This document shows positions 734 through 34,774 of a DNA stretch of 47,372 nucleotides, one piece after another; position 1 is the first letter of the stretch, and the number at the start of each line of letters is the position of its first letter. The notes under the pieces were generated by a model that worked only from the letters and a program-made list of their open reading frames with translations, made no database searches and was not told the DNA's origin. Origin of the DNA: Verrucomicrobiota bacterium (GTDB lineage Bacteria; Verrucomicrobiota; Verrucomicrobiia; Chthoniobacterales; SZAS-18). The stretch spans positions 1 through 47,372 of the forward strand of contig JANXRG010000091.1 of the NCBI GenBank assembly GCA_025353105.1. The letters are read 5' to 3'. Made by a program: the position numbers and the translations under genes.

Positions 734-3415
734 ATGGCAAAGTCATCGTCCTCATCCGTCTCTTCCGGTCCCCATTCCAAGGGCGCGCCCCTGTCCGGAA
801 GCTATCGGCGGCCTCCGCGCGGAAATCGACTGGGCGCACTCGGTGCAAAAGAGAGCATCACCGTGACCCTCGAACTTCGGCGCCAACAGGAGCTGCCGAG
901 TTTTGGCTTCGCTCCGGAACTTAATCCGCTATCCTCACGTGCCGATCGGATCGCCTTTGGGAAGAAGTACGGCGCCGGGATTGCGGACATCAAGGAGGTC
1001 GAGAAATTCGCGCGCGCCCACAAGTTCAAGGTCGTGGAGAAAAGTCCGGACAAGCGCCGCGTGCGCGTCCGCGGCTCGGTGGCACAGATGCAGGCGGCCT
1101 TCGGGGTCAAGCTCAGCCGCTTCACGCCGATGGGCGGCGGGTCGGAATTTCGCGGGCGACAGGGCGCCATCTCGCTCCCGGTGCAACTCAGAAAAATCGT
1201 CGTGGGCGTGCACGGACTCGACAACCGGCCGTTTGCTCGGACCCACCCCCAAGTGGGCCGCCGCGTGCCGATCAGCCATCCACCGCACGTCTTTGGCGAC
1301 GCGGCCGATCCCTTCAGCCGCGGATTCACCGGGCAGGACCTGGCGGCGTTATACAATTTCCCCGCTGGCACCACGGGCAAGGGGCAGACCATCGCGATTA
1401 TCCAACTCGGCGGCGCCATCGACGAGGCGGAAATTGCGCGCTTTTTTGAGCAAATTGGATTGCAACGCGATCCGAAAGATCTCGTGGTCGTCAACCGCCC
1501 GAAACGTTCGCTGGGCGAGCAACCGTCCTATGATCTCGAGGTGGCGCTCGACGTTCAGGTGGCCGGCGCCGCGGCGCCCGGGGCGAGGCTCGTCGTTTAC
1601 TTCGCGGAGGACCATTCGCTCGAGAGCGTGCACAGCGTCGTCCTCGACGCGATTCACGACACCGTGCATTGCCCGAACATTGTCTCGATCAGCTGGGGCG
1701 GACCGGAAAGCGAAACCAGCGGACAGTTTCGCAAAAGTGCCCACGAGACGCTCCGGGTCGCACGTCGGTTTGGCATCACCGTGATTGCGCCGGCAGGCGA
1801 TCATGGTTCGGCGGACCATCGTTTCAATGACCCCGCGTGGGATGGCAACGCGCATGTTGACCACCCGGCCGCGGATCCCCTCGTGCTGGCGTGCGGCGGA
1901 ACGGAACTGCAGCGCGACGCGCATCGACCGAATCACTTCACCGAGACCGTCTGGAACCAGGACCGCAACAACAGCACGGGCGGCGGAGTCAGCCGGCTGT
2001 TCCCGATGCCTTGGTATCAGCAGGACGCAAACGTGCCCGCCGCGCGCAATCCGCGCGGGCCGGTGGGCCGCGGGGTGCCCGACGTAGCGGCGAACGCCTC
2101 GGGCGAAAGCGGCTACCTCGTCCTCTGCAACGGGCAGTGGCACCCCGACTACACCCAAGGCGTGGGAAAAGCGTATGGCACCAGCGCGGTGGTGCCGCTG
2201 TGGGCGGCGCTGGTCGCCCGGTTGAATGAGGCGCTGGTGGCTGATGCCGATGCGGGTGGGAAACCGGCGCATCCGCTCGGCTTCCTGCAGCCGCGCCTTT
2301 ACGCGCTGCCGCCGGATTGTGGCGCGTTCACGGAAATCGCGGGTGGCAGCAACGGCGACTATGAGGCGGGTCCCGGTTGGAATCCATGCACCGGGCTGGG
2401 CGTGCCCGATGGCACCCAGCTTTTACGCGCGTTGCAGACCTATGTGCCGCGGGCGAGCGAATTCGTGCGCGCGACGGGCTCAGGCGGCCATGGAGAAACA
2501 ACCCCGGCGTTTGACGTTTCGCGCGCGCGGCGCGACCGCGAGGCTGGCCAAGCCGAAGGTTTCGAATCGCGTGCGCTTGGGGATCGAGGTGGCAGCAATA
2601 TTGAAGGCTACGAGGCGCGGGCGCTTGGAGATCGCGGCGGCAGCAATATTGTGGGCGCCGAATCCCAACGGACGGGGGATCGCGGCGGAAGCAATGTCGA
2701 AGGTTACGAGGCGCGGGCGCTTGGAGATCGCAGTGGGAGCAATATTGCGGGCTGCGAATCGCAACGAACGGGGGATCGCGGCGGCAGCAATATTGAAGGC
2801 TACGAAGCGCGGGCGCTCGGAGATCGCGGCGGCAGCAATATTGAAGGCTACGAGGCGCGGGCGCTCGGAGATCGCGGTGGGAGCAATATTGTGGGCGCCG
2901 AATCGCAACGAACGGGGGATCGCGGCGGAAGCAATGTCGAAGGCTACGAAGCGCGGGCGCTTGGAGATCGCGGTGGGAGCAATATTGCGGGCGGCGAATC
3001 GCAACGAACGGGCGATCGCGGCGGAAGCAATGTCGAGGGCTACGAAGCGCGTGCGCTTGGAGATCGCGGCGGGAGCAACATCGTCGGCTCGGAGTCACAG
3101 CGCACCGGCGATCGCGGTGGTAGCAACATCGAGGGTTACCAACCGCGCGTGACTGGAGATCGCGGTGGGAGTAACGTCGAAGGCTTCGAGCCACGGGCGG
3201 CCACGACGCTCGGCGAGGGCGGCGTCGCGGGCCAAAGGAAGCGGCGTTCGAAGAAAGATCGCCGCGGAAGCAACGTCGAAGGCTATGAGCCGCGGGCGAC
3301 CGGTGATCGCGGCGGCAGCAACATCGAAGGCTACCAACCACGCGGGACGGGAGATCGCGCCGGCAGCAATCTTTCGGACGCGGAGCCGAGGGAAGAATCT
3401 ATCGGCCCGTCCTAG
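734..3415 (+). CDS. S53 family (sedolisin/kumamolisin-like) peptidase with C-terminal 16-residue repeats
   Basis: The protein is 893 residues. Residues about 40-170 match an activation (pro-kumamolisin) prodomain with the motif VRVRGSVAQMQAAFGV. The catalytic domain spans about 200-590. Visible catalytic residues are E269 and D273 (DLEVALD), the oxyanion Asp D356 (AGDHGSAD) and Ser484 (YGTSA); the spacing 4/83/128 is close to kumamolisin. The C-terminal calcium-site region reads FTEIAGGSNGDYEAGPGW, with Glu where Asp is usual. Residues about 616-885 are sixteen copies of GDRGGSN-xxGxExxxx, absent from ordinary sedolisins. The N-terminus is Ser/Lys-rich with no clear signal peptide, as in some kumamolisins. 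S53 enzymes are acid endopeptidases that self-process, so export is expected but not shown. A kinase gene follows 95 nt downstream on the same strand. Confidence 0.9.
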   Translation: MAKSSSSSVSSGPHSKGAPLSGSYRRPPRGNRLGALGAKESITVTLELRRQQELPSFGFAPELNPLSSRADRIAFGKKYGAGIADIKEVEKFARAHKFKVVEKSPDKRRVRVRGSVAQMQAAFGVKLSRFTPMGGGSEFRGRQGAISLPVQLRKIVVGVHGLDNRPFARTHPQVGRRVPISHPPHVFGDAADPFSRGFTGQDLAALYNFPAGTTGKGQTIAIIQLGGAIDEAEIARFFEQIGLQRDPKDLVVVNRPKRSLGEQPSYDLEVALDVQVAGAAAPGARLVVYFAEDHSLESVHSVVLDAIHDTVHCPNIVSISWGGPESETSGQFRKSAHETLRVARRFGITVIAPAGDHGSADHRFNDPAWDGNAHVDHPAADPLVLACGGTELQRDAHRPNHFTETVWNQDRNNSTGGGVSRLFPMPWYQQDANVPAARNPRGPVGRGVPDVAANASGESGYLVLCNGQWHPDYTQGVGKAYGTSAVVPLWAALVARLNEALVADADAGGKPAHPLGFLQPRLYALPPDCGAFTEIAGGSNGDYEAGPGWNPCTGLGVPDGTQLLRALQTYVPRASEFVRATGSGGHGETTPAFDVSRARRDREAGQAEGFESRALGDRGGSNIEGYEARALGDRGGSNIVGAESQRTGDRGGSNVEGYEARALGDRSGSNIAGCESQRTGDRGGSNIEGYEARALGDRGGSNIEGYEARALGDRGGSNIVGAESQRTGDRGGSNVEGYEARALGDRGGSNIAGGESQRTGDRGGSNVEGYEARALGDRGGSNIVGSESQRTGDRGGSNIEGYQPRVTGDRGGSNVEGFEPRAATTLGEGGVAGQRKRRSKKDRRGSNVEGYEPRATGDRGGSNIEGYQPRGTGDRAGSNLSDAEPREESIGPS
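2579..3390 (+). repeat. 48-bp tandem repeats coding sixteen 16-residue units
   Basis: Thirteen units of 48 bp run without interruption (about 2579-3202). After a degenerate stretch of about 55 bp (TTLGEGG...RKRRSKK) three more follow (about 3259-3390). Two unit types largely alternate: GDRGGSNIEGYEARAL and GDRGGSNIVGAESQRT. Copies are very similar in DNA sequence, including synonymous positions, which points to recent copy-number change. They are all in frame with the peptidase and have no unique spacers, so this is not a CRISPR array. Confidence 0.9.
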
Positions 3416-3510: not shown

Positions 3511-6375
3511 ATGTCTCCGACGCCTCCCCTGCGCTTCTCCCATTATCGCGTGTTGCAGCACGCGGATGGAACGCCGTGGCGCCTTGGCTTCGGGGCCATG
3601 GGTGTCACCTACAAGGCGTACGACGAGCGCCTGCGCATTGAGGTCGCGCTGAAATTGATTCACCCCACCCGGGTCGATGATCCAAAGGCGCAGGCGCTGT
3701 TCCTGCGCGAGGCGCGCGCCGCGGCCCGCGTCCGCCACCCAAATGTCGCCAGCGTGCTTTTTCTCAACGACCACCCCGGCGAGTTCTTCTATGCGATGGA
3801 ACTCGTCGCGGGAAAATCCCTGCAGGAAACCCTGAGCGAGCGTGGCCCGCTGCCGGTTCTCACCGCGCTTTCGATTGCCGCGCAGGTCGCACATGGCCTC
3901 GACGCGATCCATGCGGAGGGCATCATTCATCGCGACCTCAAGCCGGGGAACCTAATGCTCTTGCCGGCGCGGAGTCGCGGGGAGGGCGAAGTGCTCCCGG
4001 ACTGGAAGGCCTGGCAGGCGAAAATCATCGACTTCGGCCTCGCCCGCACCTTCGAGGGTGAATCACTCGGCAATACAGCCGTGGAGCCGACGACCGGTTT
4101 CCGCGGCAGCGTCCTGTACGCGAGCCCGGAACAGTGCGAGGAGCGCACCGACCTCGACGGTCGGTCCGACTTATACTCGCTCGGCTGCATCTTGTGGGAG
4201 TTGCTGGTTGGTGCACCGCCATTCCAAGGGAAGTCGCAACATGAAGTGATGACGCATCACGTCTCGCGCCAGCCGGCCCTCGCGCGCCTCGAGTCGCAAC
4301 CCGAGAGCGTGCGCGCGGTGATCGCTCGGCTGCTGGAAAAGGATCCAGATCAACGCTTCCCGACGGCCGACGCGACTGCGCGGGCGCTCGATCGTTGCTT
4401 CGACCAGATCGTTAGCGGGGCGGAGAGTCCGGGCGCGCCGATCGTACCCTCAGGGGCTCCGGCCGCGTCGCCCGTGTCGGCATCGCACGGGATTGAGACC
4501 GTCTGGCTGAATCCTCCCAGCGGTCGAGCGCGCAAGCTGACGATCGCGGCATCCGCCCTCGTGCTCGCGGTCTTGGTCGCCTGGCTTTGGCAGCGGACAA
4601 GGCCAACCCCGTCGCCCGCCGCGGTTGTTCGAGACGCGACCCCGCAACCGACCTCGGTCCCCGCTTCGCCGATCGCGCCCGCGGCGCCCGAGAAGAGCAT
4701 CGCCGTGCTCCCGTTCGAGAATCTCAGCGAGGAAAGGAAGAATGATGTCTTCGCGAACGGCGTCCAGGACGAGATCCTCACGGACCTCGCCAAGATTTCG
4801 GATCTAAAAGTGATCAGCCGTTCCTCCGTCATGCAGTACAAGGGCGGGGAGCCGCGCAACCTGGCCGACATTGGGCGCGCGCTCGGCATTGCCTACGTGC
4901 TCGAGGGAAGTGTGAAGCGGGCCGGGGACCGCGTGCGCGTGACGGTGCAGCTGATCGATACGAAGACCAACGCCCAAGTCTGGGCCGAGCGCTTTGAGCC
5001 CGCGATGGCGGATATTTTTGCGGTTCAGGCGGAAATCGCCAGGACGGTGGCGCGGGAGTTGAAGGCCAAGCTGACCTCCGCCGAACAGGCCGCGATCGAC
5101 CAGCGCCCGACCTCGGACCTCCGGGCGTACGAGCTTTACCTGCAGGCCAAAGAATTGGTTTTTTCCGGCACGGGTGGTCGCGGCGCGGCAGGTGCCCGCG
5201 AGATCCGGGAGGCCCAGGATCTGTTGGGCGAAGCGGTGGCGCGCGATCCATCTTTTTTCCTCGCGCACATCCTGCTCGCCTACTGCCACGACAACCTTTT
5301 CTGGTTCGGGAGCGACCCGACGCCGGAACGCCTGGCGCGGGCCCAGGCGAGTCTCGAGAACGCGGCGAAGCTGCGCCCGGACGGCGGGGAGTTGCACCGC
5401 GCGAAGGCGTTGCATTTCTATTGGGGTTCTCGCGACTACGTGAAGGCGGCAGCCGAAATCGCGCTGGCCAGCAAGGTTCTCCCGAACGATCCAAACACGT
5501 TTGCGCTGCGCGCCTACATCGACCGCCGCCAGGGGCGACTGGCTGATGCCATCCGGAACCTCGAGAAGGCGGTCGAACTGAGCCCTCGTGATGTAGTGCC
5601 AGCCTACGACCTCGCCGAAAGCTACGCGGAGGCGCGGCGCAGCCGGGATTTCTTCCGGGTCATGGATCATCTCGCCGAGTTGAGCCCGCGCGAGCAGCGC
5701 ATCCAGCTTTTCCGTGCATTCAACGGCCATCTCATGCTGCTGGGCGATCCCAAGCCGCTGCAGGAATTGATTGCCCAATACCAGCGCGACAATCCGGCGA
5801 AATTCAGCGAGTACGCGCAATTCGCCTTCACGCTGGCCCTTTATCTGCGCGACGCCGCCGGTGCGGAGCAGGCGGCGACTGCAATCGCGAAAGAGTCGAT
5901 AACGTGGATCGCGTGGAACGGCCGGCGTTTTCCAAAGTCATATTTCGACGGGGTAAGGGCGTACTATTTTGGAAAGCCGGAGCAGGCCCAGGAAATTTTT
6001 TTGGCCGTCCGCACGGAACTCGATACGCGACTGGCCCAGGCGCCGGACGACGATGCCTCGCTGATGGCGCTGGCCTACGTGCTCGCGTTTTTGGGCGAGA
6101 AGGACAAAGCAAGTCAAGCGGGCGAGCGCGCGATGGCCGTCATGCCGGTGGCGAAAGACGCGATCACCGGCGCAAACCACGCGGCGGCCCTCGCGGAGAT
6201 CCTCGCGCTCAACGGCGATCGGGGCGCGGCGCTTGCGCAGCTCGATCGTCTCGTCACGATGCCGTTTTCCACCGACTACGGCGACCTAGTGCATAATCCA
6301 TCTTGGGATTCGATCCGCGGCGACCCGCGGTTCAAGTCCATCCTCGAGCGCATGGCGCCCGGGCTGGACAAGTGA
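3511..6375 (+). CDS. Ser/Thr protein kinase with TolB-like domain and TPR region
   Basis: The protein is 954 residues from the ATG at 3511; an in-frame TTG at 3502 is less likely. Residues about 8-290 are a Hanks-type kinase: glycine loop GFGAMG, ATP lysine K48 (VALK), catalytic D142 (HRDLKPGN), D174 of DFG and YASPEQ in the activation segment. A Pro-rich linker leads to one membrane helix at about 343-363 (IAASALVLAVLVAWLW). Residues about 395-520 (SIAVLPFENLSEE..., VLEGSVKRAGDRVRV) are the TolB/FlgO-like domain often found between a regulatory domain and TPRs. The rest, to the end, is TPR-like helices. The topology implies a cytoplasmic kinase and an extracytoplasmic TPR sensor or scaffold. 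Substrates are unknown; the peptidase gene just upstream may share its transcript. Confidence 0.9.
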   Translation: MSPTPPLRFSHYRVLQHADGTPWRLGFGAMGVTYKAYDERLRIEVALKLIHPTRVDDPKAQALFLREARAAARVRHPNVASVLFLNDHPGEFFYAMELVAGKSLQETLSERGPLPVLTALSIAAQVAHGLDAIHAEGIIHRDLKPGNLMLLPARSRGEGEVLPDWKAWQAKIIDFGLARTFEGESLGNTAVEPTTGFRGSVLYASPEQCEERTDLDGRSDLYSLGCILWELLVGAPPFQGKSQHEVMTHHVSRQPALARLESQPESVRAVIARLLEKDPDQRFPTADATARALDRCFDQIVSGAESPGAPIVPSGAPAASPVSASHGIETVWLNPPSGRARKLTIAASALVLAVLVAWLWQRTRPTPSPAAVVRDATPQPTSVPASPIAPAAPEKSIAVLPFENLSEERKNDVFANGVQDEILTDLAKISDLKVISRSSVMQYKGGEPRNLADIGRALGIAYVLEGSVKRAGDRVRVTVQLIDTKTNAQVWAERFEPAMADIFAVQAEIARTVARELKAKLTSAEQAAIDQRPTSDLRAYELYLQAKELVFSGTGGRGAAGAREIREAQDLLGEAVARDPSFFLAHILLAYCHDNLFWFGSDPTPERLARAQASLENAAKLRPDGGELHRAKALHFYWGSRDYVKAAAEIALASKVLPNDPNTFALRAYIDRRQGRLADAIRNLEKAVELSPRDVVPAYDLAESYAEARRSRDFFRVMDHLAELSPREQRIQLFRAFNGHLMLLGDPKPLQELIAQYQRDNPAKFSEYAQFAFTLALYLRDAAGAEQAATAIAKESITWIAWNGRRFPKSYFDGVRAYYFGKPEQAQEIFLAVRTELDTRLAQAPDDDASLMALAYVLAFLGEKDKASQAGERAMAVMPVAKDAITGANHAAALAEILALNGDRGAALAQLDRLVTMPFSTDYGDLVHNPSWDSIRGDPRFKSILERMAPGLDK

Positions 6376-6518: not shown

Positions 6519-8954
6519 TCAGGTGCCGTATCCATCACTCAACACGCTGGTCGTTGCATCGATGGCCAGTGACTCGTTGAGATAGCGCTGCGCGTCGTCA
6601 TACGCACCCTTCGTCCTCGCGTATGCGGCGGCCAATTCAAGGTAGTGCACGGCGCGCGCCGGCTCATTCGCCGCGCGCCAGTGACGCGCAAGGGTGGGGT
6701 AGCGCGGGGCCAAATCGTTGGCGTGCGCACGCTCATGCCATTCGGCGATTGCGCGATGCAATTGTCTGCGTTGCGCGAAAAGCATCTGATCATAGGCGCC
6801 TTCCCGCGCCCGCTCCTCACTGAACATGTAAGCGCGATCGATCGTGCCGCCCGCGGGCGCGATCCATTTCAGCTTGGTCAGTGCTGCGAGATGTTCGGCC
6901 ACATTCTGGCGTTCACTTTCGTCGGGATAAATATCGCGCAACAGCTTCATCTGAAAAACCTGTCCAATCACGCTGGCGGTCTTGAGCGTCATCTGTTGCG
7001 CAGGAGTGAGCTGGTCGAACAGCATGGCGTGATGCGACTCGGCCGGGGGGTGGTCGGCGCGTTCGGCCAGTGGTCGGTAGACGTTCACCGGCTCAGATTT
7101 GCCCTTTACCTGGATTACTCCGAGCGATTCGAAATCGATCTGCTCGCGCGTGGCCAGGTGCACGGCGTCATCGCAGAGCACCGTGTTAGGCGCGGCGGCC
7201 ATCATCAGTCGGGCAGCGAGATTGGTCTTGTCCCCGATGACCGTGTAGGCCCGCTGCGCCGGGCTGCCGTATGCCCCCGCGCGAATCGGTCCATGCGCGA
7301 GGCCCAGGCCGATGTTGGTCACGAACGCGAGTTCCACCGGGGGCGCTTGCAGAGCCAGCGCGGCGCGGACCGCCCGCGTCGCATCATCGTAGTGCGCGAC
7401 CGGTGCCCCGAAGGCGATGTTGAAACTGCTGCCCTTGTCGCCGATGGCCATTTGCAGCAACGCTCCATCCCATCGCTGGACGACCGACTGCACCCAGCGG
7501 GCGAACGCGTCGAGTTTGGACCACGCGTCAGGATCGCGGTCGTAGTCGATGCCCCCAAAGCGCAGGAAAAGGGAGGCGGCCGGACGAAGTTCGGCGAGGA
7601 AGGCGCCATGACCGCTTTTGACCTTTTCGTAAACGGCCGGCGGCAACCACGCGCGGACCTGGTCCGCCTTGAGCGCGTCGGCGGGAATTTCTGGCCACGG
7701 GACGGGGGCCACCCCCTCACGCAATCCGGTGATCACGACATAGTTTCCCGCGTCCCGCGATTCCGAAACGATCGACTTGCCGTCCAGCATGGCAATCACG
7801 GCCGACGTCGCGACGACCTCGCCGCGCTTCGCCTGGCGTTCCGCTCGCGCTAGATCCGCCAGCAAACTTCCGGCCAGGACGTCCATGACCTGTCCGGTGG
7901 GGTCGCCCACCAACAACCGACGGGCGGGCCCGGATGCCAGGGCCACCTTGACTTCAATCGTGATGACCATGCCGCCGGGCGCGGCGATCTCCGCGAACTG
8001 CGGCATGGACCCCTGCATCGCGAGCCCGCACGCCACTGCCGGACGCGAGGATTCTCCCGCGAACCAGCACGTGATGGCGTCCCCGCCAAATCCCACCACG
8101 CTGCCGCCATGCTGATGCGCGTGCTCGATCAAGACCGCGTACACCTGGTTGATGACGCGCGTCACTTCCTCGGCGCCGCGCTGGAGACCCAGCTCGCGGG
8201 CAAAGGATTCCGTCAGTGGCGTAAAGCCTGATATGTCTGCGACAAGGACCGTACCGATCGAGCTTTCGGGCAGGGCAAACCCGCGGGCCACGGCCTGCCG
8301 GCGATCCATCGGAAGGTACGCGGCCGCGGTGTCGGCAGCACTGCTGCGCTCCTCCTCGATGTCGAGCTGGAGCTGGCGCAACTGGCGTCTGAGACGCTGC
8401 TCGCGGGCGACAACCTCCCGGGCCATTTTTTGAAAAACGCGCGCGAGATTGCCGAGCGAGTCGCCGCGGTCCGCCACGGGCGAAATGGCGGCCTCGTCGT
8501 AGGCGCCACTCTGCACGGCTTCGGCGGCGGCGGTGAGTCGTTCCACCTCCCGGAGATATTCTCGCTCGCGATCGCGCCGCAATTTCTTGTCCAATCCAGA
8601 TGTGATGCGCGCTTCCAGCAACACCGGCTCGAACGGCTTTGGTAAATAATCTTCGGCGCCGCCGTGAATGCCTTTGACGATGCTGGCCAGATCGTTCATC
8701 GCCGAAATGATGATGACAGGAACTTCGCGTGTCGCCGCCTCGGCTTTCAAGCGGGCGAGCACCGCGAACCCGTCCACGACCGGCATCATGATGTCGAGCA
8801 ACACGAGGTCGGGCGACTCAGCGGCGACCTGCGCCAGCGCCTCCTCGCCGTTGGCGGCGGACACGGTGTCGTAGCCCAGATCATCGAGTTCCTGCTCGAG
8901 GTAGTCGACGTTGTAGGGTTCGTCGTCGACGATGAGAATCTTGGGGCGCGGCAC
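6519..8954 (-). CDS. Receiver domain fused to two class III adenylate/guanylate cyclase homology domains
   Basis: The protein is 811 residues. Residues 1-125 are a receiver with acidic D10/D11, phosphoacceptor D54 (LLDIMMP) and K106. A coiled coil leads to cyclase domain 1 (about 232-390): GTVLVADISGFTPLTE with metal Asp D240, and VVGFGGDAI with the second Asp D292. Cyclase domain 2 (about 455-620) keeps the fold (QMAIGDKGSSFNIAFG, YTVIGDKTNLAARL) but its first metal site reads ASLFLRFGG, without Asp, so it is probably non-catalytic. The arrangement resembles soluble adenylyl cyclase (type 10 family), yet the P-loop ATPase that usually follows is missing; only a helical tail (FDQLTPAQQMTLKTASVIGQVF and TPR-like helices) remains. 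It is last in the operon, 42 nt after the single receiver. cAMP is the likelier product; the sequence does not settle ATP versus GTP. Confidence 0.88.
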   Translation of the reverse strand: MPRPKILIVDDEPYNVDYLEQELDDLGYDTVSAANGEEALAQVAAESPDLVLLDIMMPVVDGFAVLARLKAEAATREVPVIIISAMNDLASIVKGIHGGAEDYLPKPFEPVLLEARITSGLDKKLRRDREREYLREVERLTAAAEAVQSGAYDEAAISPVADRGDSLGNLARVFQKMAREVVAREQRLRRQLRQLQLDIEEERSSAADTAAAYLPMDRRQAVARGFALPESSIGTVLVADISGFTPLTESFARELGLQRGAEEVTRVINQVYAVLIEHAHQHGGSVVGFGGDAITCWFAGESSRPAVACGLAMQGSMPQFAEIAAPGGMVITIEVKVALASGPARRLLVGDPTGQVMDVLAGSLLADLARAERQAKRGEVVATSAVIAMLDGKSIVSESRDAGNYVVITGLREGVAPVPWPEIPADALKADQVRAWLPPAVYEKVKSGHGAFLAELRPAASLFLRFGGIDYDRDPDAWSKLDAFARWVQSVVQRWDGALLQMAIGDKGSSFNIAFGAPVAHYDDATRAVRAALALQAPPVELAFVTNIGLGLAHGPIRAGAYGSPAQRAYTVIGDKTNLAARLMMAAAPNTVLCDDAVHLATREQIDFESLGVIQVKGKSEPVNVYRPLAERADHPPAESHHAMLFDQLTPAQQMTLKTASVIGQVFQMKLLRDIYPDESERQNVAEHLAALTKLKWIAPAGGTIDRAYMFSEERAREGAYDQMLFAQRRQLHRAIAEWHERAHANDLAPRYPTLARHWRAANEPARAVHYLELAAAYARTKGAYDDAQRYLNESLAIDATTSVLSDGYGT

Positions 8955-9365: not shown

Positions 9366-12300
9366 TCAGCGGCGGGAAATGTTTTGCCCTTCACGGGGGA
9401 TCGAGGTGGCGGACAGCGCGCCCGAAATCTCCTTGTTCAAGGCCTCGCCCGCCAGTCCCTGCTTGTGCAGGATTTTCGCGACACTTGCATTCAAGCGCGC
9501 GGTCTCGTCCGCGGAGAGGCTCTTGGCGGTCAACACCACAATCGGAATGGTCCGCAAATTCGCGTCCTGTCGCAGACGCTCAATCACCGCAAATCCGTCC
9601 AGGCCCGGCATCATAAGATCGAGGAGGATGACATCCGGTCGCTGGCGCGCGATCGCGTCGAGAGCGGCGGCGCCATCCCCGGCCGATTCGATCTCGTAGT
9701 TTTCGCCCAGTAATTGCCGAACGAGATCAATGACGTCCGGATCGTCGTCCGCCACGAGCAAGCGCTTCAGCGGTTGGCCGCCGGTGAGATGGGTCACGCG
9801 TCGGAGAGCGTCGAGCACGGCATCGGTGTCGAAGGGCTTGAGCAAATATTCGGTGGCGCCGAGCTGATAACCCAGCGGCTTGCGGTCCACGATTGTGAGC
9901 ATGATGACGGGAATGTCGTGCGTGGCGGGATCCGCTTTCAGATCGTACAGCACCTGCCAGCCGTCCTTGTTCGGCATCATGACGTCAAGCGTGATGACGT
10001 CCGGCCGCAACGCCCGCGCCTTCGCGATTCCCTCGTCGCCGCTCGCCGCGCCCACGACATGGAAACCGGCCTCGCTCAAATTCTCGCGCAGGATTTCCAA
10101 GTCATTCGGGTCGTCGTCAATGGCAAGGACGACAAGCTGGCCGGAACGCGCCGGTTGATCGGAGGACCGGGTCGCGGCTGCGGCCGCGGTCGACTCGCCG
10201 AAACGCACGGGAACTGTCAGCGTGAACGTCGAGCCAACATCGATCGTGCTACGGACTGTCAGATGACCGCCCAGCAAGTGCGCCAGGCTTCGGCTAATCG
10301 AGAGACCCAACCCTGTGCCGCCGTACTCGCGCGTTGTACTCGTGTCCGCCTGCTGAAATTCCTCGAAAATACGCTGCATGGCCTCTTCCGTCATGCCGAT
10401 GCCGGTGTCGGTCACCGCCACGGCGAGCTCAGATCCTTCCGTGTGCGCGGTCACCGTTATTTCCCCGCGATGCGTGAACTTCGCCGCGTTACTCAGCAGA
10501 TTGAGGAGCACCTGCTTGATTTTGTCCTGGTCGGAATGCATGAGCGAAAGATCGTGTCCATAATCGCGGACCAGCGCTACGCCCGGCTTGAGCAGCGGCG
10601 TCGCGGTCGTGACGCATTGATCGATCAACTGCGCCGCGTTGAAATTTGCGGCCACTACATCCATGTGTCCGGCTTCGATCTTGGCGATGTCGAGGACCGT
10701 GTTGATCAGGCTCAGCAGGTGCTCGCCACTGGTGAGGACCTTGTCGAGGTTTTCGGTTTGCTTCTCGGGCAGCGCGCCCTCGGCCTTGCGCCGGACAATG
10801 CGCGTGAAACCAATGATCGCATTGAGCGGAGTGCGCAGCTCGTGGCTCATATTTGCGAGGAAGGTGCTCTTCGCGCGGTTGGCCTGCTCGGCGGCGGCGC
10901 GGGCCTCTTGCGCCTCCTTGAAAAGCCGGGCGTTCTGAATCGCGATCACGGCCTGGTCGGCAAAGGTCTTGAGCAGCGCCAGTTCCTTTTCGGTGAATGG
11001 CTTCGGCGGCTGGCGCATCACGCAGATCGAGCCGATGCCGCTGTCCTCCCATAGCATCGGTGCATACATCAAGGAAACATCGCCGATCAGCTCTGTCACA
11101 CCCCGGAGCGTGGCTGGCAAATCAGCGGCCGCACCCGTGTCGGAAACCTGCAGGGCGCGGCGCTCGCGAATGACCCGTCCCGTCATCGTTTCGGCGAGTG
11201 GCTGGCCCGCGACCCGCGCCACGGCGGCGAGCGCCGATCCACGCCACGCCCCCACGCCCACCAGCCCATCCTGACCCACCACAAAGATGCCCATTTGCTC
11301 GGTGGCGAACAACCGCTGGCAGCTGTCCAGAATCTTCTCAAACACCGGCGCGGTGTCGGCCACCGAGCTGCTGATGACCTGCAGCACCTCCGCGGTGGCG
11401 GTCTGCTGCTCCAGCGCCTCTTTGGTCTCGTTGAACAGCCGCGCGTTCTGAATCGCGATTACCGCCTGCTCCGCGAACGTCTTCAGCAGGGCAAGCTGCT
11501 TGTCGTTGAAGGCGCCCGTGAATAGGCGTGCCACCCACAATGCCCCGATCGCGTTACCTTCAAAGATCATGGGCGCGGTGAAGATCGAGCGGAAGCCGAC
11601 GATCCCGGCCAGCTCGCGGGTTGAGTCCGGCACTTCGGCGGCGTCGACGTCAGGATATGCGACAACGCGACGCTCGAGAATGGCCTGGCCCGAGGCGGTG
11701 AGAGCGGTCAAGGGCTGCGGGAATTTCCTGGCCAGCTCTTCCCGGCCCGGGCCGGCGTACGAGCCGAGGTCCAGCAGATTGCCCTCACGGACCAGCATTA
11801 CGCCGACAATGTGACCGGCAAAGAGCCGCTGGCAGCTTTGCAGAATGACGTCGAACACCGGCTCGGTATCGGCGATGGAACTGCTGATCGCGGCCAGGAC
11901 TTCGCCCGAGGCGCGCTGCTGATCGAGCGCCTCCTTGGTCTCATTGAACAGCCGGGCGTTCTGAATGGCCACGGCGACGTTCGCGGCGATGGTGCCAAGG
12001 AGGTGCTGGTCAGCGTCGGTGAATCGTCCCTCCGCCTGGGTGCTCTGCACGCTGATGACGCCAATCGCTTCGCCTCCGACCATGACGGGCACACCGAGGT
12101 AGGACTTGGCGTAGACGCCCACGCGCTTCACGCCGATGGCGACGGTGGTTTCATCGAGGCCCACGTTGATCAGCAGCGGCTGTGCGGTCTGGAGAATCTT
12201 GCCGGTGAGGCCTTCCCCGACGGGCATGGGCGTGAGTTCGTCGCCGAAGACGTAGGGGAAAAGGATCGTCTGACTAGCCTTGTCGAGCAGCGCCACATAC

Positions 12301-15300
12301 ACGATGTCGGCGCGGAAATTGAAGCGCATCTGTTCGCCGACGACCTTGATGAGTGCGTCTAGGTCGAGTTGCGAGGACAGGGCCTGTCCGATGGTGTTGA
12401 CGGTATCGAGCTCGCCCGCGCGTTTCTCGGTTTCGGCGAGTAAGCGGCGGGTTTGTTCGAAGAGACGCGCGCTTTCCAGTGCCACGCTCATGCTTCCCGC
12501 CAGAGTCGTGAGCAGGCGCACATCCGACTCCGTGAACGCGTTCTCGCGATCCATGTTGTCCAGGCCGATCATTCCGCGCACGTCCGCGCCGACCATGATG
12601 GGAACGCGGACAAGGCTGAGGGCCGGTTCCGTGCCCGGCACGGTCTGGCTGACCACGCCGAGCGTGGCCAGGCTTTCGTCGAGCGTCTCGTTGACCAGGA
12701 GCGGCTGACGGGTGCGAACGATGTGCTGACCGAGCGGTGAGATCGGTGCGTCCGGGATCTCGAAGCGCTGACCCTTTTCGAACATGTAGTGGTACCGGCG
12801 AAGATCGGCCTCAGGATCGAGCGAAAGAATGCTGATCCCTTGCGAGTCGAACAACTCGCGCAGCTTGTCGCCCACCAACTCATAGATGGCCTGAATCTCG
12901 AGCTTGGAGGCCAGCCCCTCCTGCACGCTGTTGATGATAGCGAGCTCGGCGTTGCCCTGTTCGGTCTCGCGTAGCAGGCGCTGCGTTTCGTCGAACAGCC
13001 GCGCGTTTTGCAATGCGACCGCGAGGCTTGAGGCAATGGTGGTCAGGAGGTTCACGTCGGCCTCGGAGTAGGCGTCTTCGCGGTCGAGGTTCTGCAGTGA
13101 GATCACCCCGATCACTTCGTCGCCCGCGATCATGGGCACGCCGAGAAACGAACGCGGGATGTCGTCACCGGCGACGGAAATTGCGCCCAACTCCGACAGG
13201 CGCTCGTTCGCGTCGCGATTGAGGACGAGGGTTTCCCGTGTGAGGATGACGTGCCCAGTGGGTCCCTGATCGACCGTGCGCAGGCCCTGGATGGTAACGC
13301 GCTCACGCCGATGCAAATAGAAGGGGATGGTGAACGTCCGTGACTTCGGATCATGCAGGGCAATGAACGTGACCTGGGTGTCAAATACGTCGCGGATCTT
13401 CTCGCCGACCAGATCGAGGATGGCCTGCATGTCGAGCTTGGAAGCCAGGCCCTGCTGTACGCCGTTGATGAGCGCGAGCTCGGCGTTGCGTTGCTCGGTT
13501 TCTTTGAGGAGCCGCTGCGTCTCGTCGAAGAGTCGCGCGTTTTCCAGCGCGACGCTCATCGAGTTCACGAGCGTTTGCAGCAGGCGCAGATCCGACTCGG
13601 AGAACGCGTGCTCGCGGTCGATGTTCTGAAGGGAGACAATTCCCTTAACTTCCGCACCCACGACCATCGGGACGTCGAGGCGGGACTTTACATCCTCACC
13701 GGTCACGACGGAAATCGCCTCCCCCACCAACTCGGCCTCCCGCTGGGGGAGGTTCTCGTTGATCATGACCGGTTTGCCAGTCTCAAGGATGTATCTCCTG
13801 ACTCCGTCCGGCGGCCGGGACTCGGCGTGCAGCCGGACGCCGCGTTCAATGATGTAGCGGAAGTGGACGAGATCGTTCGCCGGGTCCCAGGTATTAATCC
13901 CCACGACCTGCGCGTCGAAGAGTTCTTGAATCTTGTCGCCCACCAGATCGTAAATCCCCTGCATGTCCATCTTCGCGACCAAGCCCTCTTGCACGCTGTT
14001 GATGATGGCGAGCTCCGCGTTTCGTTGCTCTGTTTCCTTGAGCAGTCGCTGCGTTTCGTCAAAGAGCCGCGCGTTTTCGAGCGCGACGCTCATGGAGTTG
14101 GCCAGCGTTTGCAGCAGGCGCACGTCCGAGTCGCTGAAAGCATGCTCGCGATCCAAATTCTGCAGGGAGATTACGCCCTTCGCCTCGTCGCCTACGATCA
14201 TGGGGACGAACAGATTCGACTTGGGCGCCTCGCCGGCGATCGTGATCGGGTTGCCGTAGCGGGCCGCTGCCTCGGAGAGATTCTCGTTCGTGAGAAGGAA
14301 CTGACGGGTCCGCAGCACGTGCTTGCGGAAACCGACCAATGGCATCGGCTCATCCGGGAATCGCACCCCGCGTTCAATCGCATACGGAAAGCGGACCAGA
14401 TTTTCCTTCCGATCGTAAAGCCCGATATCCACGACCTGGGCGTCGAAGATGTCGCGAATCTTGTTGCCCACCAGATCGTAGATGCCCTGCATATCCATCT
14501 TGGCCACGAGGCCTTCCTGGACGCTGTTGATGATGGCGAGCTCGGCGTTGCGCTGCTCGGTTTCCTTGAGCAGTAACTGCGTTTCATCGAAGAGCCGCGC
14601 GCTTTCGAGGGCGACGCTCATCGAATTGGCGAGGGTTTGAAGTAGGCGCACGTCTGAGTCCGTGAAGGCGTGTTCGCGATCGAGATTCTGCAGCGAGATC
14701 ACGCCCTTGGCCTCGTTGCCCACGATCATGGGGACCCACAAGGCGGATTTGGGCGTTTCGCCGGAGATGCTGAGGGGGTTGCCATAGCGCGCCGACGCTT
14801 CCGGAATACCCTCGTTGATCAGGAGGTATTGGCGCGTCTCGAGGACATGCTTCCGAAAGCCGATCAACGGCATTTGGTCGAAGGGGAACCGCACACCTCG
14901 TTCGATGACGTAGGCAAATTGGATCACGTTTTCCTTCGGATCGTGGAGCCCGATGGACACCACCTGCGCATCGAAAATTTCTTGAATCTTGTCGCCGACG
15001 AGGTCGTAGATGCCCTGCATGTCCATCTTGGCCACGAGGCCCTCCTGGACGCTGTTGATAATGGCGAGTTCGGCGTTGCGCTGCTCGGTCTCCTTGAGCA
15101 ACCGCTGGGTCTCGTCAAAGAGCCGCGCGTTCTCCAGCGCGACGCTCATCGAGTTGGCGAGCGTTTGCAGAAGCCGCACGTCGGACTCGCTGAAAGCGTG
15201 CTCGCGATCGAGATTTTGCAGAGAGATAACCCCTTTTGCTTCGTGGCCGACAATCATGGGGACGAACAGACCGGATTTGGGAATCTCGCCCGCGATGCTC

Positions 15301-18300
15301 AGCGGGTTTCCGTAACGAGCCGCCGCTTCCCGGATTTTGTCGTTGACCAGCAGGTACTGACGGGTCTCGAAGACATGCTTCCGAAAACCAATCAGGGGCA
15401 TCTGATCGAAGGGAAAGCGCACACCGCGCTCAATGATGTACCGAAAGTGCATCGCGTGATCGGCGCGATGGTAGAGACCGATGCTGACCGACTGGGCGTC
15501 AAAGATTTCCTGAATCTTGTCGCCGACTAGATCGTAGATGCCCTGCATGTCCATCTTGGCCACGAGGCCCTCCTGGACGCTGTTGATGATCGCCAGCTCG
15601 GCGTTGCGTTGCTCGGTTTCCTTGAGCAATCGTTGCGTTTCATCAAATAGCCGCGCGTTCTCCAGCGCAACGCTCATGGAATTCGCCAGCGTTTGCAGCA
15701 GCCGCACGTCTGAGTCGGTGAAGGCGTGCTCGCGATCGAGATTTTGCAGCGAGATAACGCCCTTGGCGTCATTGCCGACGATCATCGGGACAAACAGATC
15801 GGATTTCGGAATCTCGCCCGAGATGCTCATCGGGTTGCCGTACTTCTCCGCCATCGCGATCGTGTTCTCGTTGATCAGCATCGGCTGCCGGGTCTCCATC
15901 ACGTGCTTGCGGAAACCGACCAGCGGCAACGGCACGTCCGGATAGCGCACGCCCCGTTCGATCGTGTACGGAAAATGCACGAGTTGGTCCTCGTGGTTGT
16001 AGAGCCCGATATCCACGACCTGGGCATCGAAGATGTCGCGGATCTTGTCGCCCACGAGTTCGTAGATGCCGGTCATGTCCATCTTGGCGACAAGGCCTTC
16101 CTGAACGCTGTTGATGATGGCGAGCTCCGCGTTTCGCTGCTCGGTTTCCTTCAGCAGCCGCTGGGATTCGTCGAAGAGCCGCGCGTTTTCAAGGGCGACG
16201 CCCATCGATGACGCCACCGTGGAGAGCAGGCGGATCTCGGATTCGCCGTAGGCATTCTCGCGCTGGTGATTCTCCACGATGATCGAGCCGATCACGCGAT
16301 CGCTGCCGATGATCGGAACCTGCAAGGCCGATCGGCTCATGTCGGTGCCGACAATCGTGGGTATGCCCATGGCGTTCGCTTCCGCCTGGGAGTTGAAGAC
16401 GACACGCTGGCGCGTCTTCAACATGCGGCCAAACATGCTTTCCTCGGTGGCGAGCGCGGGCGCGATGGTTAGTCGCTTACCGTGTTCATATTCATAAAGG
16501 AAATGCAGGAGATTGGTCTGCCCTTCATGCCAGCGAATCCCCATATCGCCGGTCTTCAGCACCTCGCGCAGCTTGTCGCCGACTAGATCGACAATGGCCT
16601 GGAAATTCAGCTCGGCGGCGACGCCCTGCTGGATGCTGTTGATGACTGCAAGTTCCGCGGCGCGTTGCTCGGTCTCCTTCAGCAACCGCTGCGTCTCGTC
16701 GAAATGGCGCGCGCTTTCCAACGCCACGCCCATGCTGGCACCAATTGTGGTCAGCAGTCGGATTTCGGCTTCACGGAAGGCATACTCGCGCTCGTGGTTT
16801 TCGAGGATGATCAGGCCCAGCACGCGATTGCTGCCGAGGATTGGCACGGAGACCATGGAATGCGCCCAATCGGTCCCCGCCAGCGGCTTGATGCCCAGCG
16901 CCGTCTGTTCGGCCCGCGTGTTGATGACCTCCGTTGCTCGCGCGCGCAACTGCCGGAACATGGTCTCATGCGGGGGCCGCGCGGGCATGTCCAGGCGCAC
17001 GCCGTGCTCATAGCTGTAAATCTGGTGCATCAGGTTGGCATCCTCGTCCCACCAGCGAATGCTCATGTCGCCGGTGCGGAAGACCGCGCGCAATTTGTCG
17101 CCCACCAGATCCACGATGGCCTGGAAGTTCAGCTCGGCCGCCATGCCTTCCTGAATGCGGTTGATCACCGCCAGCTCCGCCGCCCGCTGCTCGGTCTCCT
17201 TCAGGAGGCGGCTTGATTCCTCAAACAGCCGTGCGTTCTCGAGCGCAACGCTCATCGAATTTGCCAGGGTCTGCAGCAGACGCAGGTCCGATTCGGAAAA
17301 CGCGTGCTCGCGGTCGATGTTCTGAAGCGAGATCACGCCCGCGACGTCGGCGCCGACCATCATCGGCACGTCGAGGCGGGATTTTACGTCTTCGCCCACG
17401 ACGATGCCGGTGGTCGGGCCGACCATTTCCTCTTCGCGACGCAGCAGGTCATCGTTGATCAGCACGGTGTTCCCGGTCTGCAGAATGTATCTCCGGATTC
17501 CGTCCGGGGGCCGGGGCTCGACGTGAAACCGCTTTCCCCGCTCGATGATGTATCGGAAGTGCGCCAAATCAGTTTGCTTGTCCCAAGTGGCTATCATCAC
17601 GATCTGCGCGTCAAAGATTCCCTGGATCTTGGCACCCACCAATTCGTAGATGCCTTGCATGTCCTTCCGGGCCGCCAAGCCGGCCTGGACGCTGTTGATG
17701 AGGGCGAGCTCGGCGGCGCGCTGTTCGGTTTCCTTCAGCAGTCGCTGTGTCTCGTCGAAGAGCCGTGCGTTCTCGAGCGCGGTGCCCAGGGACGAGGCAA
17801 TGGTCGAGAGCAGCTCGAGTTCGGTTTTGCTGTAAGCCCTCTCCCGCTCGTAATTTTCAACGCTGATTGCACCCAAAACGCGGTCGGTGCCAATGATGGG
17901 GGCATGGATCGAAGATCGGCTGGAGTCCGTGCCTGGAATCCGGATTGATTTCAGCTTCGCCTTTTCCGCGAGCGTGGGCAGAAACACGGGTTTCCGCGTG
18001 CGCAGAAGCTTTTCAACCAGCCCGGAAGCAAGGGGTCGACTAGGCGCAATCTCGAGGCGCTGGCCATGCTCGTAAAGGTAAAGGAAGTGAATCAACTTCG
18101 TCTTCTCATCGAACCATCTGATGATCAGATTCGGGGTTCTGAACATCTCACGCAGCTTGTCGCCCACGAGATCTACGATGCCTTGAAAAGTATGTTTGGC
18201 GGCCAGGGCGCGTTGGATCGAATGGAGAATGACAAGCTGAGTCCGGAGCTGCTCGCCCCCGGCATTTGGGCGCGAATCATTTCCAGACGTCACTTTCCTG

Positions 18301-18530
18301 CGCCCGCGGGACGACACTTTACCGGCCTCGGATTTTGCTGCGCGTTTGATGGCGTTGGACGAGGCGTTCCGCACTCGACCGAGCGAGTCGCGGTGGGCTT
18401 CTTTAACCGTCCGTTTCTTCGGTAAGCCGGCCGACGCGCTCGCACGCTTACGGTCGACCGCGGTCTTGGGTTTTTTCCCCGACGCGTTTTTCTTTCTCGG
18501 TCTCGCGTCGGTTGTCTTCTTGGTTGCCAT
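9366..18530 (-). CDS. Giant hybrid histidine kinase with 14 GAF domains and two receiver domains
   Basis: The protein is 3054 residues with no membrane segment. Residues 1-92 are a Lys/Arg/Ala/Ser-rich tail. Fourteen GAF units follow with a period of about 177 residues, starting near 96, 270, 450, 624, 800, 975, 1150, 1327, 1502, 1681, 1860, 2038, 2207 and 2385. Most are joined by the same linker (RLFDETQRLLKETEQRNAEL), a likely signalling helix. Units 5-9 are nearly identical to each other; 12-14 are divergent. HisKA carries H2563 (NMSHELRTPLN). The ATPase domain follows with NLLSNAAKF, DTGIGM and GGTGLGLSISR. Receiver 1 has D2849 (TLDVMMP); receiver 2 has D2971 (LLDLMMP) and ends with HKQG in place of the usual KP. 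GAF domains bind small molecules such as cyclic nucleotides, tetrapyrroles or metals, or dimerise; no Cys-based chromophore site was recognised. It heads an operon with a receiver and a receiver-cyclase. Confidence 0.93.
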   Translation of the reverse strand: MATKKTTDARPRKKNASGKKPKTAVDRKRASASAGLPKKRTVKEAHRDSLGRVRNASSNAIKRAAKSEAGKVSSRGRRKVTSGNDSRPNAGGEQLRTQLVILHSIQRALAAKHTFQGIVDLVGDKLREMFRTPNLIIRWFDEKTKLIHFLYLYEHGQRLEIAPSRPLASGLVEKLLRTRKPVFLPTLAEKAKLKSIRIPGTDSSRSSIHAPIIGTDRVLGAISVENYERERAYSKTELELLSTIASSLGTALENARLFDETQRLLKETEQRAAELALINSVQAGLAARKDMQGIYELVGAKIQGIFDAQIVMIATWDKQTDLAHFRYIIERGKRFHVEPRPPDGIRRYILQTGNTVLINDDLLRREEEMVGPTTGIVVGEDVKSRLDVPMMVGADVAGVISLQNIDREHAFSESDLRLLQTLANSMSVALENARLFEESSRLLKETEQRAAELAVINRIQEGMAAELNFQAIVDLVGDKLRAVFRTGDMSIRWWDEDANLMHQIYSYEHGVRLDMPARPPHETMFRQLRARATEVINTRAEQTALGIKPLAGTDWAHSMVSVPILGSNRVLGLIILENHEREYAFREAEIRLLTTIGASMGVALESARHFDETQRLLKETEQRAAELAVINSIQQGVAAELNFQAIVDLVGDKLREVLKTGDMGIRWHEGQTNLLHFLYEYEHGKRLTIAPALATEESMFGRMLKTRQRVVFNSQAEANAMGIPTIVGTDMSRSALQVPIIGSDRVIGSIIVENHQRENAYGESEIRLLSTVASSMGVALENARLFDESQRLLKETEQRNAELAIINSVQEGLVAKMDMTGIYELVGDKIRDIFDAQVVDIGLYNHEDQLVHFPYTIERGVRYPDVPLPLVGFRKHVMETRQPMLINENTIAMAEKYGNPMSISGEIPKSDLFVPMIVGNDAKGVISLQNLDREHAFTDSDVRLLQTLANSMSVALENARLFDETQRLLKETEQRNAELAIINSVQEGLVAKMDMQGIYDLVGDKIQEIFDAQSVSIGLYHRADHAMHFRYIIERGVRFPFDQMPLIGFRKHVFETRQYLLVNDKIREAAARYGNPLSIAGEIPKSGLFVPMIVGHEAKGVISLQNLDREHAFSESDVRLLQTLANSMSVALENARLFDETQRLLKETEQRNAELAIINSVQEGLVAKMDMQGIYDLVGDKIQEIFDAQVVSIGLHDPKENVIQFAYVIERGVRFPFDQMPLIGFRKHVLETRQYLLINEGIPEASARYGNPLSISGETPKSALWVPMIVGNEAKGVISLQNLDREHAFTDSDVRLLQTLANSMSVALESARLFDETQLLLKETEQRNAELAIINSVQEGLVAKMDMQGIYDLVGNKIRDIFDAQVVDIGLYDRKENLVRFPYAIERGVRFPDEPMPLVGFRKHVLRTRQFLLTNENLSEAAARYGNPITIAGEAPKSNLFVPMIVGDEAKGVISLQNLDREHAFSDSDVRLLQTLANSMSVALENARLFDETQRLLKETEQRNAELAIINSVQEGLVAKMDMQGIYDLVGDKIQELFDAQVVGINTWDPANDLVHFRYIIERGVRLHAESRPPDGVRRYILETGKPVMINENLPQREAELVGEAISVVTGEDVKSRLDVPMVVGAEVKGIVSLQNIDREHAFSESDLRLLQTLVNSMSVALENARLFDETQRLLKETEQRNAELALINGVQQGLASKLDMQAILDLVGEKIRDVFDTQVTFIALHDPKSRTFTIPFYLHRRERVTIQGLRTVDQGPTGHVILTRETLVLNRDANERLSELGAISVAGDDIPRSFLGVPMIAGDEVIGVISLQNLDREDAYSEADVNLLTTIASSLAVALQNARLFDETQRLLRETEQGNAELAIINSVQEGLASKLEIQAIYELVGDKLRELFDSQGISILSLDPEADLRRYHYMFEKGQRFEIPDAPISPLGQHIVRTRQPLLVNETLDESLATLGVVSQTVPGTEPALSLVRVPIMVGADVRGMIGLDNMDRENAFTESDVRLLTTLAGSMSVALESARLFEQTRRLLAETEKRAGELDTVNTIGQALSSQLDLDALIKVVGEQMRFNFRADIVYVALLDKASQTILFPYVFGDELTPMPVGEGLTGKILQTAQPLLINVGLDETTVAIGVKRVGVYAKSYLGVPVMVGGEAIGVISVQSTQAEGRFTDADQHLLGTIAANVAVAIQNARLFNETKEALDQQRASGEVLAAISSSIADTEPVFDVILQSCQRLFAGHIVGVMLVREGNLLDLGSYAGPGREELARKFPQPLTALTASGQAILERRVVAYPDVDAAEVPDSTRELAGIVGFRSIFTAPMIFEGNAIGALWVARLFTGAFNDKQLALLKTFAEQAVIAIQNARLFNETKEALEQQTATAEVLQVISSSVADTAPVFEKILDSCQRLFATEQMGIFVVGQDGLVGVGAWRGSALAAVARVAGQPLAETMTGRVIRERRALQVSDTGAAADLPATLRGVTELIGDVSLMYAPMLWEDSGIGSICVMRQPPKPFTEKELALLKTFADQAVIAIQNARLFKEAQEARAAAEQANRAKSTFLANMSHELRTPLNAIIGFTRIVRRKAEGALPEKQTENLDKVLTSGEHLLSLINTVLDIAKIEAGHMDVVAANFNAAQLIDQCVTTATPLLKPGVALVRDYGHDLSLMHSDQDKIKQVLLNLLSNAAKFTHRGEITVTAHTEGSELAVAVTDTGIGMTEEAMQRIFEEFQQADTSTTREYGGTGLGLSISRSLAHLLGGHLTVRSTIDVGSTFTLTVPVRFGESTAAAAATRSSDQPARSGQLVVLAIDDDPNDLEILRENLSEAGFHVVGAASGDEGIAKARALRPDVITLDVMMPNKDGWQVLYDLKADPATHDIPVIMLTIVDRKPLGYQLGATEYLLKPFDTDAVLDALRRVTHLTGGQPLKRLLVADDDPDVIDLVRQLLGENYEIESAGDGAAALDAIARQRPDVILLDLMMPGLDGFAVIERLRQDANLRTIPIVVLTAKSLSADETARLNASVAKILHKQGLAGEALNKEISGALSATSIPREGQNISRR
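11330..18250 (-). repeat. Tandem in-frame GAF-coding repeats (period about 530 bp)
   Basis: Fourteen GAF-coding units are arranged head to tail. The stretch encoding the linker plus 'AIINSVQEGLVAKMDMQGIYDLVGDKI'-type helices recurs near 14020, 14547, 15078, 15603 and 16128 with only scattered, mostly synonymous differences. Variable parts lie in the ligand-facing strands (IGLYHRADHAM, IGLHDPKENV, INTWDPANDL and so on). This is a duplicated domain array inside a gene, not a mobile element. Confidence 0.85.
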
Positions 18531-33824: not shown

Positions 33825-34673
33825 CTATTCGCGTTCCCGATCGCGGGTGTCCGGAGCCGGCTCTTCCTCCTCCGTATCACCACCTTCCTCATCGGTCAAA
33901 CCGAAGAGCGAGGTGACGACCGGGCGGACGCGCTGATTGCGGTTCTGCCGCTCAATCTGCGTCTGGCATTCGACGGTATACCGCGTGAAGGGAATCGCCT
34001 CGAGGCGCGGGTGCGCGATGGGCTTGCCCGACATTTCGCATTTCCCGTAGGAGCCGTTTTCGATGCGCTTGAGTGCCTCCTCGATCTCGTTCAGCGCGTC
34101 CTGCTCCTGCGACAACAGGCTGAGCGCGAAATCACGATCGTACGCGTCGCTGCCGGCGTCGCCCTGGTGCATGCCGAATGCGGACGCCTCGCTGCCCTCA
34201 GCGCGCGATCGCAGATTGTCCTGCGCCATGCCCTGCATCGAATCGAGCATCGAGTCGCGCAAGGCGAGCAGCCGCTCCTTTTGCTTGCGGAGAAACGGAT
34301 TCAGTTTCGAGTCGTTGTTCTTCGCCGACGGGACCAACATCAGCGACGCAACCGTAGCGGGCACCTTCTTGCCCTTGATGGGCGCGATGGGCTTCAGCAC
34401 TGGTTTCGCCTTCGCCGCAGCGACCGGTTTCGTTTTCACCACGGGCTTGACCTTCGCGGCCGGTTTGGCCTTCGACGCGGGTTTGGCCTTCGACGCGGGT
34501 TTGGCTTTCGTCACCGGTTTGGGTTTCGCGGCCGACCTGGCTTTCGGGGCGGGATGGGACGACTTCTTTGGCGCCGCCTTGTGCTTCGTCGCCGGCTTCA
34601 CCGCGCGCTTGGCGGCCGGGGCTGGCGCCCGTTTTGTCGACTTCGCGGAAGATTTGATTTTGGACTTTGGCAT
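33825..34673 (-). CDS. dksA: DksA/TraR-family RNA polymerase factor with histone-H1-like N-terminal tail
   Basis: The protein is 282 residues from the ATG at 34673 (MPKSKIKSS); the frame stays open upstream but overlaps the permease gene. Residues 1-105 are Lys/Ala/Pro repeats (KAKPASKAKPASKAKPAAK) resembling histone H1 or a DNA-binding tail. Residues about 122-245 are DksA: long coiled coil (LLALRDSMLDSMQGMAQ...), tip D176-x2-D179 (D at 181 where Ala is usual), then the zinc-finger region with C212, S215, T233 and C236. Two of the four zinc Cys are lost, as in zinc-independent DksA2 proteins. The C-terminus is acidic. DksA binds the RNA polymerase secondary channel and acts with ppGpp. The tail could add nucleic-acid binding. 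It leads the dksA-rpmG-rpsR unit. Confidence 0.88.
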   Translation of the reverse strand: MPKSKIKSSAKSTKRAPAPAAKRAVKPATKHKAAPKKSSHPAPKARSAAKPKPVTKAKPASKAKPASKAKPAAKVKPVVKTKPVAAAKAKPVLKPIAPIKGKKVPATVASLMLVPSAKNNDSKLNPFLRKQKERLLALRDSMLDSMQGMAQDNLRSRAEGSEASAFGMHQGDAGSDAYDRDFALSLLSQEQDALNEIEEALKRIENGSYGKCEMSGKPIAHPRLEAIPFTRYTVECQTQIERQNRNQRVRPVVTSLFGLTDEEGGDTEEEEPAPDTRDRERE

Positions 34674-34703
34674 GGAGGCGTTACGGGGGGAAAAAGAGGC
34701 GGA

Positions 34704-34732
34704 CATATACCGGTGAACACCCCCGGGCGCAA
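34704..34732 (-). promoter_or_regulatory. Candidate sigma-70-like promoter for dksA-rpmG-rpsR
   Basis: On the minus strand TTGCGC (34732-34727) and TATATG (34709-34704) are separated by 17 nt, in the 101-nt gap between the second permease gene and dksA. Transcription would start near 34697 and give a leader of about 25 nt. The matches to consensus are partial (3/6 and 4/6). No Zur-like AT-rich palindrome was seen here. Confidence 0.3.
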
Positions 34733-34774
34733 GAACAAATACGGAATCGATCGCATTCGCTCTTCCGGCCCGTC

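Follow-up and report, generated by a model that had tools for sequence, protein, structure and literature searches.

The locus considered here raises the question of what the long repetitive C-terminus of a predicted S53 peptidase is and what role it may have. It lies in the first part of the window, i.e., the whole stretch of DNA that was analysed, 47,372 nucleotides in length. The features of the peptidase gene and of the gene that follows it are listed below.

734–3415, forward strand: S53 (kumamolisin-type) peptidase with a repeat tail, a single ORF of 893 aa with an ATG start
944–1225, forward strand: Pro-kumamolisin activation domain (prodomain), residues 71–164, Pfam PF09286, E 3.2e-13
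1322–2452, forward strand: S53 catalytic domain, located by PDB alignment and an 18-sequence alignment
1538–1540, 1550–1552, 1799–1801 and 2183–2185, forward strand: catalytic E269, D273, D356 and S484, respectively
2453–2578, forward strand: linker of 42 residues, the last part of which is a degenerate unit (AEGFESRAL), read directly from the sequence
2579–3202, forward strand: tandem units 1–13, each of 48 bp or 16 residues, by TRF and motif listing
3203–3253, forward strand: 17-residue basic insert TTLGEGGVAGQRKRRSK, which interrupts the period, read from the sequence
3254–3397, forward strand: units 14–16, of a third type, partly degenerate
3511–6375, forward strand: Ser/Thr protein kinase with one TM segment and TolB_N and TPR regions, Pkinase E 1.6e-44

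Residues 20–573 of the protein align with pro-kumamolisin (PDB 1t1e, E 3.4e-97), and the tailed protein shows the traits of a sedolisin: the four catalytic residues are in place, and the prodomain and catalytic domain are homologous to those of solved sedolisins. All collected homologues that cover E269, D273, D356 and S484 have the same catalytic Glu, Asp, oxyanion Asp and Ser. The view of the gene as an S53 peptidase to which a repeat tail has been added, taken in the earlier note, is correct in the light of the 1t1e match, the Pfam prodomain and the catalytic residues, and the protein is predicted to be an otherwise ordinary kumamolisin-type S53 peptidase. With kumamolisin and sedolisin (MEROPS S53, PDB 1t1e) it has in common the prodomain, the catalytic domain by sequence and the Glu-Asp-Asp-Ser set; in contrast to kumamolisin, it bears a tail of 278 residues after the linker and replaces both acidic ligands of the calcium site. 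A search of NCBIfam with the whole 893-aa protein gave no match, and both the peptidase and the tail are unique within the window's own genome.

In kumamolisin the side chains of two Asp residues close to the C-terminus, D316 and D338, are ligands of the calcium site. The corresponding positions are E534 (2333–2335) and N550 (2381–2383) in the window protein, and Q and N in its orthologue from the same-genus genome SZAS-18; most other S53 homologues keep Asp there, and some vary as well.

The array contains 16 copies of the core xDRxGSN, the first at 2579, which is the number of units counted earlier, and was independently picked up by TRF; a two-motif (two-copy) DNA pattern gave 6 matches in the window and 0 in shuffles. 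The core GDRGGSN, described in the earlier note as invariant, is exact in 13 of the 16 copies and altered in unit 4 (GDRSGSN), unit 14 (KDRRGSN) and unit 16 (GDRAGSN). Two unit types, A and B, are present as claimed, but their alternation is broken by an A-A step (order A-B-A-B-A-A-B-A-B-A-B), and the last five units of the array belong to a third type, EGY[EQ]PRxT-like or degenerate. The strict period of 16 residues does not hold, since the step from unit 13 to unit 14 is 33 residues, owing to the insert with its basic stretch QRKRRSK. The array is located as reported from 2579, whereas the ORF runs slightly beyond the end given for the feature, 3390, to 3415. The idea that the unit was derived from the calcium loop of the enzyme itself (GGSNGDYEA, similar to GGSNIEGYEA) was rejected because the resemblance lacks significance: equally high scores were reached by 1515 of 2000 shuffled bodies at the protein level and by 70 of 500 at the DNA level.

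Differences between units of type A comprise 10 synonymous and 1 replacement change (p 9e-6), and those between units of type B 12 and 5 (p 1e-4), by minimum change counts and against an expectation of about 25% synonymous changes without constraint. Gene conversion between units could mimic such a signal and is a possible contributor, so that the test is supportive, rather than conclusive, of a coding array with the protein sequence of its units under purifying constraint. The DNA of units 1–5 and units 6–10 is mostly 92–96% identical (lag-5 identity 0.92–0.96 in the first four unit pairs), which points to the recent duplication of a 240-bp block of five units.

The closest relative is the Verrucomicrobia MAG SZAS-18 (G001), in which the peptidase body is about 62% identical. 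The tail of the orthologue (L003/L034) consists of one degenerate 16-residue unit, DEGGSRVAESEGRAAP, followed by four GDPGGSN units at a 14-residue period, the last of which ends at the stop codon, and is 45% glycine. The two tails share only GDxGGSN[IV]; the spacers between heptads are of 9 residues in the window and of 7 in SZAS-18, and their sequence is not kept between the orthologues, whereas the heptad is. A database search for the 16-mer pattern and a count of units across strains were proposed in the earlier note; in SZAS-18 the motif and the tail are present, but at the 14-residue period and with four units against 16. Judged from this one comparison, as there are only two known tailed members, what is conserved is the motif and the fact that it is repeated, and not the 16-residue spacing.

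No peptidase match was obtained in the other genome of the genus, which is 89% complete. The tandem pattern allowed for both periods (16 and 14) and restricted one glycine codon to GGC. A scan of 97 relatives and 388 genomes across the phylum, partly overlapping sets of about 480 genomes in total, found only two arrays, those of the window and SZAS-18, and one isolated chance-like match. No relatives of the tail were found in the PDB or in phage records, none were confirmed in the genome contigs searched, and no Pfam family matched the tail; neither tail heptad was found in the literature searched. A plasmid match to a giant Methylobacterium protein was weak (26% identity), was judged compositional and was rejected. 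Since arrays were found only in two genomes of the same genus among those searched, an origin of the tail in or close to this genus is probable. Elsewhere in the order, S53 enzymes either stop at the end of the S53 domain or continue into C-terminal regions unlike this tail; five that bear such a region (L009, L012, L015, L024 and L027) have domains or repeats of other kinds, none with GDxGGSN units. As these other extensions are frequent in the order, an accessory C-terminal tail as such is usual for the family.

The charge-hydropathy boundary places both tails among disordered sequences (0.372 vs 0.420 and 0.395 vs 0.434) and both peptidase bodies among folded ones, and composition indicates that the tail is disordered. 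We prefer, tentatively, to read it as an attachment tail that is particular to this lineage, mostly flexible and multivalent, carried by an S53 peptidase of the usual kind and with a putative binding function. The S53 gene of one verrucomicrobial genus carries an in-frame C-terminal tail of many GDxGGSN[IV] copies with changeable spacers; the copy number has been raised through duplication of multi-unit blocks, and the spacing differs between species. The tail would be a mostly flexible arm on which the heptad recurs as a weak binding element, and many heptads would jointly hold the enzyme on a polymeric or surface ligand, or on its own copies, while the peptidase domain acts. Export to the surface is an assumption here, since no signal peptide was seen in either orthologue. 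An anchoring or binding role is the most likely one for the tail. Kumamolisin-type enzymes are usually active at acid pH, and the computed charge of the tail is about -5 at pH 7 and about +24 at pH 4, an increase that would make binding to anionic material stronger; the trend is not specific to the tail, since the peptidase body behaves likewise.

A more rigid tail, a beta-solenoid of 16-residue coils extending from the peptidase and offering a flat binding face, is a doubtful alternative. In the earlier note the period was considered compatible with this fold, and prediction of the tail alone was proposed. AlphaFold2 did draw a solenoid-like model from the tail alone, with two strands per 16 residues in units 1–7 and block pLDDT up to 66, but at low confidence (mean pLDDT 51, pTM 0.42) and with a strand pattern varying between near-identical units. 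As a check, the antisense frame of this DNA was also predicted and came out without a solenoid, at pLDDT 35. Repetition by itself may therefore be insufficient to account for the tail model, but the control is a weak one, since that frame is less periodic than the tail (identity 0.59 vs 0.80 at lag 32, i.e., two units). AlphaFold2 is also documented to draw beta-solenoids from random-sequence perfect repeats (PMC11795689). VIA-align places the tail model on several solenoid proteins, including adhesins and tailspikes, with Z up to 14.5 (best 9gh4, rmsd 7.8) and in many cases with large rmsd, whereas Foldseek against the PDB gave no match at E 0.001, and aromatic or aliphatic residues make up only 14% of the tail. 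Part of the array matches the 16-residue period of the ice-nucleation proteins, which are beta-solenoids, but the tail has no sequence or Pfam match to support the likeness and the period is lost in the SZAS-18 orthologue. The RTX beta-roll, built of GGxGxDxUx nonapeptides, is not fitted by GDxGGSN at a spacing of 16 or 14, and here too a Pfam match is absent. The 14-residue period and glycine content of the orthologue, the disordered-side composition and the low-confidence model all weaken the solenoid argument, and a strict 16-residue solenoid is not supported.

The kinase motifs VALK, HRDLKPGN and DFG are visible in the translation of the downstream gene and place the product among protein kinases; compared with bacterial membrane Ser/Thr kinases bearing TolB_N and TPR regions, it is an ordinary member save for its conserved adjacency to a tailed peptidase. 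The orthologous kinase of SZAS-18 is 54–56% identical and follows the S53 gene there too, and in both genomes the pair lies on the same strand, 81–95 bp apart, with no flanking genes in common. The kinase gene is likely the second gene of one unit with the tailed peptidase, and, judging from two genomes, the two products may be functionally linked. The kinase family gave 21 matches in the window's own genome and 17 in SZAS-18.

The kinase-TolB_N-TPR family is expanded in the genus, with about 16–21 strong matches per genome (G000, G001 and G002). Signalling genes were also found elsewhere in the window, on the reverse strand: an ORF at 6519–8954 that, judged by eye from its translation, seems to encode a response-regulator receiver together with two cyclase-like regions, and, at 9366–18530, a 3054-aa hybrid histidine kinase in which about 14 GAF-domain matches accompany HisKA, HATPase and two receiver domains. 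A further reverse-strand ORF, 33825–35135, has Lys/Ala/Pro-rich KAKPAS repeats (34440–34534) in its N-terminal part and a C-terminal part resembling a DksA/TraR-type protein (assigned by eye).

The adjacent kinase might use the tail as a multi-site substrate and, by phosphorylating its GGSN serines, alter charge and binding and so couple its own sensor domain to the peptidase, but this is unlikely. Ser is present in every unit, and the gene pair is conserved despite differing flanks; no signal peptide is visible in either tailed orthologue, the window protein has no hydrophobic N-terminal segment, and the kinase domain is N-terminal to the TM segment, so that the peptidase and the kinase could meet in the cytoplasm. 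However, the adjacency is known from two genomes only, the family has about 20 copies per genome, and the inspected loci of paralogous kinases have no comparable tailed neighbour and none with this motif. That the pair forms a tunable multi-site phosphorylation switch, with one serine heptad per unit and with unit number and spacing quick to change between species, seems improbable.

Nearly neutral expansion of a repeat without a specific role, tolerated at the C-terminus, would agree with the occurrence in a single genus and with the variation of period and copy number between the two species; it is nevertheless a rather improbable explanation, since synonymous differences between units are in excess of replacements and both species have kept GDxGGSN[IV] despite spacer turnover. 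A disposable tail, trimmed by the acid-activated peptidase or serving as a source of peptides with their own role, is very unlikely: S53 proenzymes self-process at acid pH and the tail, if disordered, would be cleavable, but the sequence data show no evidence of a cleavage site, and the spacers differ between the orthologues, the heptad alone being conserved.

The gene is a genuine variant, specific to its lineage, within a known family of enzymes, and its tail has the look of a flexible arm for attachment that evolves fast, not of a rigid 16-residue structure. The strict period of one sequence is poor ground for inferring a fold; the two orthologues have the same body and a different tail grammar, and it is their comparison that reveals the conserved part of the repeat. 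Use of the tail as a tag for a specific surface would hinge on finding the ligand. If the heptad binds, this peptidase would be a compact natural case of an enzyme gaining and re-spacing a multivalent tail within one genus.
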